Shown in pieces: positions 56,222 to 62,197 of a stretch of 64,000 nt of DNA; position 1 is the first letter of the stretch; the number at the start of each line of letters is the position of its first letter. This stretch comes from Nitrospira sp. (GTDB taxonomy: Bacteria; Nitrospirota; Nitrospiria; Nitrospirales; Nitrospiraceae), in contig CP060501.1 of the NCBI GenBank assembly GCA_024760545.1, positions 3,364,036 through 3,428,035 of the forward strand. Direction: 5' to 3'. The position numbers and the translations under genes are program-made. The notes below the pieces were generated by a model, which ran no database searches, had not been told where the DNA came from, and saw nothing but the letters and a program-made list of their open reading frames with translations.

Positions 56222-56497
56222 ATGTTTGGTAGTCTAGGGTTCACCGAGCTGATCCTCATCCTCATGATCGTGTTGATTATCTTCGGCGCGGGGAAATTGC
56301 CACAATTGGGCGAAGGGCTCGGCAAAGCGATCAAGGGATTCAAGAAGTCCGTCCATGAGGCGGACCAGATCGAGGCCGAAGCTCAGACGGCGGCGCAACA
56401 GGCGGCAACACCCAACGCGATAAACGCGGCTCCTACCCAGAACGCCGCATTGAATCAGCCGAGTGGGGCTACGGTGCAGCCGGCCCCACGCTCATAG
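56222..56497 (+). CDS. tatA: Twin-arginine translocase subunit TatA
   Basis: This 91-residue protein has the short N-terminal helix [18 protein letters not shown], the hinge [10 protein letters not shown], the amphipathic helix [13 protein letters not shown] and an Ala/Gln-rich tail. It forms the Tat pore that exports folded proteins such as cofactor-loaded molybdoenzymes and UrtA. ATG 56222 has a GGAAGGGGGG tract upstream. It lacks tatB/tatC neighbours. Its placement suggests a dedicated role for this locus. Confidence 0.95.
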
Positions 56498-56621
56498 CAG
56501 GATGTTGAAAAAGTCCTCCAGCTTCGTTCTCGCGTCGCTCAGAGGCTCAACGTACGATAAAGAGTACGTCTCGCCTCTTCACCCGCTGTGGCCTTGCTGG
56601 AAGGCCTTTTTGAACATCCTG
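56498..56621. repeat. Dispersed intergenic repeat, copy B, containing a terminator
   Basis: The left end AGGATGTTGAAAAAG and right end CTTTTTGAACATCCT are near-perfect inverted repeats. Inside are AGAGGC...GCCTCT and CGTAC...GTACG pairs. Near the right end, GGCCTT-GCTGG-AAGGCC is followed by TTTTT (56590-56611), a complete rho-independent terminator behind tatA. The sequence is related to copies at 49306 and 60731. Confidence 0.85.
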
Positions 56622-56718
56622 TGTACCGCCCATTCCGACTGAGTCCATGACCATCGGAGGTCGACGGTACGCGTGAGTCAGAATAAATTTTCAACAGCTT
56701 GCTAGGAACGTCGCACCT

Positions 56719-58956: not shown

Positions 58957-59412
58957 GTGGTGGTGGCACACAGGATTTTGAGAGCACGGATCGTATGGAA
59001 CGTCATGCTGGCCGGCGGTCTACTTGTGGGTGGTATGGAGAGCGCGTGGGCCGCGACCCAGAACGGCGCCATGACGGAAGAAGAAGCGGCCAAGCTTGGA
59101 GAAGAGTTTGGGATCATTGTCGGCGCCGTGGACGAAGAGATTCAAAAGGAACTCAAGCTTCAGAAACCACAGGGCGTTGCAGTGTTCGAGGTGATCGGAA
59201 ACTCGCGCGCGGATTATGCAGGGATCAAGGTGCGATCCGTCATCAAGGAAATTGACAAACAAGAGATCCGAACCATGACGGACTTCGGGCGAGCCATTAA
59301 GAAGTCCATGAAAGAATGCAACTTTACCGTCGGGACCTATGAGCCGGCCGATCCCGATGACCCTGTCGGATGGGGTGTCAATTTTCATTTCGTCGGCTGT
59401 AAGCGGGATTAG
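58957..59412 (+). CDS. Secreted single PDZ-domain protein
   Basis: This 151-residue protein has a signal peptide (to about AWAATQ) and one PDZ-like domain: GVAVFEVIGNSRADYAGIKVRSVIKEIDKQEIRTMTDFGRAI. No protease domain is attached, so it probably binds peptides or partner proteins in the periplasm. It ends five bases before the first pentahaem cytochrome gene. GTG 58957 is used. Further GTG codons directly downstream are possible. Confidence 0.8.
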   Translation: MVVAHRILRARIVWNVMLAGGLLVGGMESAWAATQNGAMTEEEAAKLGEEFGIIVGAVDEEIQKELKLQKPQGVAVFEVIGNSRADYAGIKVRSVIKEIDKQEIRTMTDFGRAIKKSMKECNFTVGTYEPADPDDPVGWGVNFHFVGCKRD

Positions 59413-59416
59413 CAGA

Positions 59417-60730
59417 ATGTTGAATATGTCCGCCGGCAATCGTCGGCGAATCACAGCCGCATCGATATGTCTTGCCCTTCTTGTGAGCGGCGGCCTTTAT
59501 CATCGGCAAGCGGCTGCGGAGGATGCCAAGGAGCAAGCCCCCGGGGACTGGGTCGCGGAGATCGAAAAGATATTCATCCGGTCGGAAGACTGCAAACAAT
59601 GCCATGATCGTCATTATGAAGAGTGGAAGGGCGCCAGGGAGCAGACGCCGGACTTGAAAACCTTTGGCCGCGTGGATGCCGCTCTTCTACACGGCACGTC
59701 GCTGGAGTCTCCGGTCTTTCGTACCGTCCTGGGTCTTTGGAAGCAGACGAATCCCACGCCAGACGAACAGCGGCGCTGTCTCTCGTGCCATGTGCCGTCC
59801 GTAAACGCGTTTCCTCAGCATGCCGAGAAGATTGCGGCGCAAGTGATTGCCGGGAAGCCAAGGATCGAAGGGATCGGTTGCGCGGCCTGCCATTTGATGA
59901 ACGGGATGGACAAGACCTCGAACTCGCCGCCGACCTTTACGCTGCAGCCGGGCAACACACTCTACGGTCCGTACTCCAATCCCGAGGAGAACCTCGTCCA
60001 TCAGGCCGCGCAGTCGGATCAGTTTCGTGCAGCCAGTTTTTGCGCATCTTGTCATTTCGATAAAGTGAAAGATGTGACGCAGAAGAATCTGCCGGGGGAA
60101 ATTCTTGAGGGGACGATTTGCCAAGATTGTCATATGGAGTCCTCCACCGGGAGCTCCACCTCAAGACGCGGGGCAATGACCAGAGCCATCGGACGCCACT
60201 GGTTTCGTGGTGTCGTCGTCGCTGGTACGATGTTGAAGAACCGAAATCTGCAAGCGGAGTGGATGCCTCGCATTGACGTTGAGGCGACAAAAACCGGCAT
60301 GGTGGTGGAAGGCACCGGCATTGTAAAAGTCGGCAGCCTCCCGCACAGTTTTCCCGATGGCGATCCGGTCCTGAAGCAGTTTTTCCTGACGATCACGGTG
60401 AAAGATGCGAAAGGGAACACGTTAGCGGAAGAGACAAAACAGTTTGGCTTGCCCTATGACAGGATCCTTCGCGGGCCGATCCCTGATCCCTTCATCAAGG
60501 GCGGGAACACGAGGAAGGTTCCCTTTGCACTGACGCTTCCCGGGGGGACCGCCGCCTCGTCGATCGAGGCCGTGCTGACCTATGCCCTTATTCCAAAGCC
60601 TGAGATTCCCTTACAGGAACAGTATTTTGCCACTCTCCAAGCGGACACCGAACGCGAGGAGGCGCGGAAGATTATCCAGGAATATACACAACGGCGCTTT
60701 CTGACCTATCGTGTCAAATCACTCTCCTAG
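59417..60730 (+). CDS. Secreted pentahaem cytochrome c (c554-like)
   Basis: This 437-residue protein has a signal peptide (to about QAAAED) and five CxxCH motifs: CKQCH (59-63), CLSCH, CAACH, CASCH and CQDCH, all in the first 240 residues. A C-terminal beta-rich domain (about 270-420) with SLPHSFPDGDPV follows. The haem region resembles the cytochrome c554 family. It is a periplasmic electron carrier or reductase. It is a tandem paralogue of the next gene. Confidence 0.88.
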   Translation: MLNMSAGNRRRITAASICLALLVSGGLYHRQAAAEDAKEQAPGDWVAEIEKIFIRSEDCKQCHDRHYEEWKGAREQTPDLKTFGRVDAALLHGTSLESPVFRTVLGLWKQTNPTPDEQRRCLSCHVPSVNAFPQHAEKIAAQVIAGKPRIEGIGCAACHLMNGMDKTSNSPPTFTLQPGNTLYGPYSNPEENLVHQAAQSDQFRAASFCASCHFDKVKDVTQKNLPGEILEGTICQDCHMESSTGSSTSRRGAMTRAIGRHWFRGVVVAGTMLKNRNLQAEWMPRIDVEATKTGMVVEGTGIVKVGSLPHSFPDGDPVLKQFFLTITVKDAKGNTLAEETKQFGLPYDRILRGPIPDPFIKGGNTRKVPFALTLPGGTAASSIEAVLTYALIPKPEIPLQEQYFATLQADTEREEARKIIQEYTQRRFLTYRVKSLS

Positions 60731-60969
60731 CAGAAAGTTGAAAGAGTCCTCCAGCGTCGTTCTCGCGTCGCTCAAAGGCTCAAGGTGGGAAATAATCCAT
60801 TCAAAGGGGGGTTATCCGTTCGCCAAGAATCATGCTACGGGCGAACGGCTCACACGAAGTGCGGTTTGTACCTCCTCGCCGCTTCGCTCGCTGCGGCCTT
60901 GGTCGGTGGAAAGCGCGTCGTGGCGCGCTGGGGTGGGCGGGTGAAGATGAAGGCCTTTTTGAACATTCC
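60731..60969. repeat. Dispersed intergenic repeat, copy C, expanded
   Basis: The left end CAGAAAGTTGAAAGAGTCC and the right end AAGGCCTTTTTGAACATTCC match copy B, as does CGTTCTCGCGTCGCTCA. This copy is about twice as long. Extra sequence lies in the middle and between GGCCTT and AAGGCC, splitting the terminator hairpin. The right end overlaps the first codons of the second pentahaem cytochrome gene. Confidence 0.8.
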
Positions 60970-62197
60970 ACGGGCAATTCTGATTCGATGCGTGGCTGTC
61001 GTAACGATCGGTGCCGCTGTGTTATCCGATGGCGCGGTTACATCCGCCCTGGCACAGAATGTGGCAAGCCAGTCGTTGATCGAGAAGACCTTCCCACATT
61101 CCAACAAATGCAAACGGTGTCACGAACGGGTGTATGAAGAGTGGGAAACCTCGCCTTTGTCGAAGTCCATCCATTCCCCGGCATTCCGGGCGTCACTCGA
61201 TGTGTACCTGAACTCAGCCGGTGGAAAGGACAAAACGTTGTGCTTCAGGTGTCATGCTCCGCACGTCCGAGAATTCCCGGATCATGCGCAACTCTTTGTC
61301 GATCAAGCGAAGGCGGGTGATCCGTCCTTGGACGGCGTGGCGTGCAGCCAGTGCCATCTGATCAAGCATGTGGACCGAGCCAAGCATCCCCCGGAGCCGA
61401 AGTATGAGATCGGCGGCAAGACGCTCTATGGCCCATACCAGGATTTCGTCCAGAATCTTGCGCACCAATCGATGGAACTGAGTCTGTTTCAGAAATCCGA
61501 TCTGTGTCTGAACTGCCATCAATCCGTGCCGTCGGCTGTGAACTTGGGCAAGTCCAACGACTTGCTCGGGAATTGGGACCAAAGCCGAGCCATAAAGTCC
61601 GGCAAGGAATGTCAGACTTGCCATATGCCGCAACAAGTAGGGGAGTCAGCCAATGGGGAAAAGAAACGCAAGATTGCCAATCATAGTTTCCCGGGTCGTA
61701 TCGGCAAGCTTCGGCAAGAGGCTGCGAAGTTAGACGTGCAGACGAAGGTCGACGGTGACAAGACGACTGTCATGGTAAAGGTCCAAAGCCTGGTACCACA
61801 CAACCTGCCTGCCACCCATCCTGCCTGGGCCGCGGTGGTCTTAAATCTGGACGTCAAAGGGAAAAACCTCAAAACGGTATTTACGGATAAGCGTGTCTAT
61901 GGTCGGACGTATGTGGATACTCAAGGACAGAAGACAGTCTTTGACTCCGAAGCGGCGAAGGTTGTCGAAGACACGGTCCTAAAACCAGAGGAGACCAGAG
62001 AAGAATCCTTCACGTTCCCGACGCCGAAAGACACCAAGACCTTCGATGTCGAGGTCGCATTGAATTATGCCCCCTTAAATGGCCCGGCCTCATTCCTCCA
62101 GCGCGTCGAAGCGGAGTCATCCCAGGGATCACAGGATCCTGCCTTCCAGCCGATCGAAATTGTAAAACGGACCGACAATATTCCGGTCAGCAGGTAA
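60947..62197 (+). CDS. Secreted pentahaem cytochrome c (c554-like), second copy
   Basis: This 416-residue protein has five CxxCH motifs (CKRCH at 55-59, CFRCH, CSQCH, CLNCH, CQTCH) and a C-terminal beta-rich domain with SLVPHNLPATHPAW. The signal peptide starts MKAFLNIPRAIL and ends near ALAQ. The first residues, MKAFLN, are encoded by the right end of repeat copy C. An upstream frame start at 60785 lies wholly in the repeat and is unlikely. It is homologous to the preceding gene in haem order and tail domain. Confidence 0.86.
   Translation: MKAFLNIPRAILIRCVAVVTIGAAVLSDGAVTSALAQNVASQSLIEKTFPHSNKCKRCHERVYEEWETSPLSKSIHSPAFRASLDVYLNSAGGKDKTLCFRCHAPHVREFPDHAQLFVDQAKAGDPSLDGVACSQCHLIKHVDRAKHPPEPKYEIGGKTLYGPYQDFVQNLAHQSMELSLFQKSDLCLNCHQSVPSAVNLGKSNDLLGNWDQSRAIKSGKECQTCHMPQQVGESANGEKKRKIANHSFPGRIGKLRQEAAKLDVQTKVDGDKTTVMVKVQSLVPHNLPATHPAWAAVVLNLDVKGKNLKTVFTDKRVYGRTYVDTQGQKTVFDSEAAKVVEDTVLKPEETREESFTFPTPKDTKTFDVEVALNYAPLNGPASFLQRVEAESSQGSQDPAFQPIEIVKRTDNIPVSR

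Follow-up and report, generated by a model that had tools for sequence, protein, structure and literature searches.

The window analyzed here is a stretch of 64,000 nt from Nitrospira sp. (GCA_024760545.1, contig CP060501.1, positions 3,364,036 to 3,428,035, forward strand), which belongs to a genome of 4.81 Mb (G000). It carries tandem multihaem cytochrome genes at 59339-60730 and 60947-62197, each of which has matches of the cytochrome c554/c7 type, and the gap between them is occupied by a palindromic repeat, copy C (Table 1). The orthologue comparison took in 79 genomes of the genus, and orthologues or relatives of the downstream cytochrome occur in all 79, a few of them as weak matches only. 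A second genome of the window species (G065), which matches Nitrospira sp. BO4, differs from the window genome by one base in 4.2 kb.

Table 1. Features of the cytochrome locus and of the repeat copies in the window.
Feature	Position	Strand	Evidence or remark
Short-form copy B, immediately behind the stop of tatA	56493..56618	+	Folds as one long palindrome (z -5.3)
TAG stop of upstream multihaem cytochrome	60728..60730	+	Repeat starts at the next base
Copy C, palindromic repeat of the extra-long form (~240 nt)	60731..60969	+	Family matches
Copy C middle block	60789..60870	+	81/82 identical to sister copy G000:C1:3025127
Copy C right arm	60871..60969	+	87/96 with same-site copy in G053; 77/93 with own-genome sister copy
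Purine-rich GGGGTGGGCGG, Shine-Dalgarno-like, repeat-derived	60930..60940	+	Predicted duplex energy of about -6 to -7 kcal/mol ahead of GTG60941/ATG60947
Alternative in-frame GTG start (MKMKAFLN...), in repeat	60941..60943	+	Two codons before ATG
Most likely cytochrome start codon ATG, in repeat	60947..60949	+	Start, signal-peptide, ribosome-binding and frame analysis
Multihaem c554-type cytochrome gene	60947..62197	+	Intact; 416 aa; identity to orthologues mostly 75-90%
Insertion-allele flank, residues 8 to about 17	60970..60996	+	Common to repeat-bearing G053/G052, absent from empty sites
Junction of 59-nt deletion (vs G053)	60996..60997	+	Native GTG-AAA...ATG start region gone

As a preliminary description of this DNA had stated, the right end of copy C reads ATG-AAG-GCC-TTT-TTG-AAC at 60947. 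That description had the repeat end, which reads AAGGCCTTTTTGAAC at 60950-60964 directly after the ATG, preceded by AT and G. The ATG itself belongs to the repeat and not to its flank: other long-form copies have GGTGARAACGAAGGCC (ACG) or similar there, and relatives at the cytochrome site have GGTGAGAATGAAGGCC. This codon, GTG 60941, and GGGGTGGGCGG are thus all repeat-derived.

The N-terminal identity profile against relatives (loci L012, L013, L014, and L023; the indel-shifted row for L011 was ignored) rises from 0-1/17 matches over residues 1-17 to 14-16/20 over residues 18-37 and 143-146/163 over residues 38-200. The repeat had been credited with the first residues, and this is upheld for MKAFLN; the insertion-derived stretch, however, extends to about 60996, so that it reaches residue 17 and not residue 6. 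Orthologues without the repeat have a different, native N-terminus, and none that was found begins with MKAFLN, so that the observation which the preliminary description had named as its refutation was not made. In a genome search with the downstream cytochrome, matches outside the window species start at query residue 7 or later, and in a contig search the loci that match from residue 1 have other N-termini.

A dispersed palindromic repeat family in Nitrospira

Copy C belongs to a multi-copy, dispersed family, with 22 matches to copy C and 32 to copy B in the window genome (copy numbers here are counts of search matches). The family has the traits of MITEs, namely terminal inverted repeats, the absence of a coding sequence of its own, and many dispersed copies, and most copies have a 9-bp terminal stem (CAGGATGTT/AACATCCTG). 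Copy C has a full-length sister copy in its own genome, G000:C1:3025127-3025365 (L002), with 90% identity over 239 nt, and the right half of copy C recurs in four more copies in the same genome (E 1e-17 to 1e-25). The middle block is missing in the long and short copies at the cytochrome site. The middle block is all but identical to the sister copy, while the right arm is closer to the same-site copy in G053 than to the sister copy, and these mixed affinities suggest conversion between copies.

The repeat occurs in short, long, and extra-long forms. Copies of the long form (~167 nt) are found at other places in the window genome and, in G053, G055, and G056, at the cytochrome site; the block of the extra-long form (~240 nt), related to the middle of copy C, is present in 16/79 genomes, including G035, which carries it at the cytochrome site with the native start kept. 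Copy C had been described as expanded; these forms are common variants of the family, and we rejected an expansion specific to this site. We also rejected MKAFLN as a general, repeat-encoded gene start. Among the 25 long-form right ends found in the genus, a long frame runs from this codon only in the two genomes of the window species (416 codons), and at all others the frame closes within 84 codons.

The motif YTAR stands immediately before the left end in many copies, most of which have no matching duplication at the right end. An outer arm resembling TTTTTCAACAGCNTGCTAG is seen ~70-100 nt past the usual right end at 56688-56705 and at L003, L005, and L123, as well as at L075 and L078, and would fit a mobile unit that is longer as a whole and has YTAR at either end. 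An autonomous parent element would carry the ends CAGGATGTTGAAAAA. An IS5-type target duplication of YTAR was considered but not adopted: the left-end YTAR and the occasional outer arms are suggestive but inconsistent, and a literature search for it returned nothing. About half of the copies found in the window genome start at the base that follows the TAG or TAA of a long frame upstream, and this position mostly falls within YTAR (e.g., 60728-60731, 56490-56493, L002, L120, L121, L123, L133, and L141); the sister copy L002, also of the extra-long form, begins directly after a TAA. This placement suggests a target preference of the family that favors stop codons.

Empty, filled, and fused alleles of the cytochrome site

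Most relatives have an empty site, in which the native start (GTG-AAA-CTG/CCG-TTG) lies just behind the upstream stop; in G031 and G077, for example, the TAG stop is followed by a short gap and by GTG-AAA-CTG-TTG-TCT-ACC-ATG. The repeat stands exactly behind the upstream stop in 20 of the 82 loci with a resolved upstream end, and additionally in G035. Most repeat-bearing loci keep the native start downstream of the repeat, and in G053, G052, G078, G017, G007, and G035 a native GTG or ATG start is retained despite a repeat at the same site. It follows that the 5′ end was not replaced by the mere insertion of the repeat. The earlier proposal that insertion or growth of the repeat replaced the native 5′ end thus stands insofar as repeat-derived DNA did replace it, but the start itself was removed by a later deletion.

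Relative to G053, this deletion comprises 59 nt and places the right arm of the repeat, with its ATG, in frame with the conserved signal-peptide core; the same junction is present in the separate assembly of G065/BO4. Two further allele groups have also lost the native start. G055 and G056 share a junction at a GCGG microhomology, where they lack 69 nt of the G053 sequence; in G013 the repeat has lost its right end, and its left part continues straight into the signal peptide. Judged from their differing junctions rather than from a tree, the three fusions (window species, G055/G056, and G013) appear to be separate events. In G055/G056 the repeat-borne ATG yields an acidic n-region, and the true start, and even function, are therefore uncertain in these alleles.

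On the cytochrome tree, the distribution of the repeat calls for no fewer than 15 gains or losses, and the clade whose alleles have the same flank as the window allele does not include the window lineage, which branches outside it. With so many changes, an ancestral insertion with losses, repeated insertion, and allele exchange are all possible histories of the site. G017 (L022) and G060 (L028) have near-identical cytochrome genes and spacers with and without the repeat, respectively, a pattern suggesting that alleles were exchanged here or that the repeat was precisely lost.

Origin of the present 5′ end

The account that we consider highly probable, based on comparison of these alleles, is that copy C, as a member of a palindromic, MITE-like Nitrospira repeat family, was inserted immediately behind the stop of the upstream cytochrome, and that a later loss of 59 nt, with the native start, fused its right arm to the signal-peptide core. 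Translation would now proceed from the repeat-borne ATG 60947 (or GTG 60941), and the repeat probably supplies the ribosome-binding region, the start codon, and the first residues of the downstream cytochrome. The signal peptide would accordingly be composite, with an insertion-derived n-region (MKAFLNIPRAILIR) and a native core and cleavage region (VVTIGAAVLSDGAVTSALAQ). Both repeat-borne starts yield a basic n-region (+3 or +4) followed by the hydrophobic core and the cleavage region with ALAQ. The Shine-Dalgarno-like match before them is only moderate, and the region that holds it is predicted to be mostly paired.

Alternatively, translation could start past the repeat (GTG 60992 or 61019), which would leave the repeat as an untranslated leader. 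In-frame GTG codons are present, and the leftover peptide keeps the hydrophobic core and the ALAQ cleavage region, but we regard this as unlikely: GTG 60992, the first start past the repeat, yields no basic n-region, which only the repeat-borne starts provide, the ribosome-binding match is weak (-2.1 vs -6.8), and the native starts of relatives lie further upstream. It is likewise quite improbable that the palindrome acts as a translational coupling switch, in which ribosomes terminating upstream open the start region. The arms do pair in the whole-element fold, the left one beside the upstream stop and the right one over the start region, but the terminal stem of copy C is the weakest among the copies measured (-16.7 kcal/mol vs -19.1 to -44.9), which looks like decay and not like conservation.

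A third reading, suggested in the preliminary description, is that the repeat, having grown at this site, could act as a 5′ end only once its terminator activity had gone. Two observations speak for it. The right end of copy B forms a terminator-like hairpin at 56590-56606 (GGCCTTGCTGGAAGGCC followed by TTTTT), and the scan that detected it found no such hairpin in copy C; the G055/G056 alleles, in which the native start is lost, also have the split long form. The reading is nevertheless very improbable, as the split hairpin characterizes variants that are widespread in the family, copies of the long form (G053) and extra-long form (G035) occupy the site with the native start intact, and compact hairpins stand before intact native starts in G078, G017, and G007. 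For chance resemblance or an assembly artefact no evidence was found, and the probability of either is negligible, given the match to the sister copy (E 1e-87) and the recurrence of the junction in the G065/BO4 assembly.

Under the favored account of insertion followed by deletion, the mature cytochrome should remain as it was, because a signal peptide can vary and is removed by cleavage, and the event is thus probably a near-neutral co-option and not a regulatory device.

Relation to known mobile repeats

REP elements are extragenic palindromes that often lie close behind stop codons. The Nitrospira repeat is likewise an extragenic palindrome close behind stops, but it is much longer (121-240 nt) and has YTAR in front. 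An origin from a REP/RAYT system was rejected, since the window genome has no cognate Y1 tyrosine transposase (PF01797) and linkage elsewhere is slight, with the repeat adjoining only 2 of the 25 Y1 loci examined in relatives. The Y1 domain is present in G065, though this genome is of the same species as the window genome. In the literature searched, the repeat family was not found described in Nitrospira, and one REP survey gives N. moscoviensis by count only.

A close parallel is offered by the enterobacterial RU-1, RU-2, and RU-3 elements, small mobile repeats that have become fused to genes (Delihas, 2007; PMC2759123). These too are short, palindromic, MITE-like repeats (103-168 bp) that serve in frame as parts of proteins, and repeat-derived signal peptides already have precedent. 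The sequence family appears to be different. The present case further differs in that it concerns a conserved multihaem cytochrome, that empty sites and filled sites with a native start make the deletion step readable, and that several different deletions affect the same gene. Rickettsia palindromic elements, ~150 bp in length, likewise extend proteins by in-frame residues (reviewed in PMC10969869); they insert within reading frames and carry an ORF, in contrast to the Nitrospira repeat, which entered an intergenic position and turned into coding sequence only once a deletion had occurred.

The fusion is the same kind of event as those described for the RU elements (Delihas, 2007; PMC2759123), with the intermediate steps visible here: the empty site, the insertion with a native start, and the fusing deletion all exist in living relatives, which makes this a well-resolved passage from mobile repeat to coding sequence. 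Whether a Nitrospira-wide palindromic element with a YTAR target exactly behind stops supplies downstream genes time and again with new 5′ ends, having rebuilt the cytochrome signal peptide in three allele groups (window species, G055/G056, and G013) by different deletions, is a broader generalization that we put forward only tentatively and hold to be rather doubtful. For annotation, homology cannot set the start sites of such genes. The locus further indicates that a conserved gene can acquire a new signal-peptide end with its mature protein remaining conserved.
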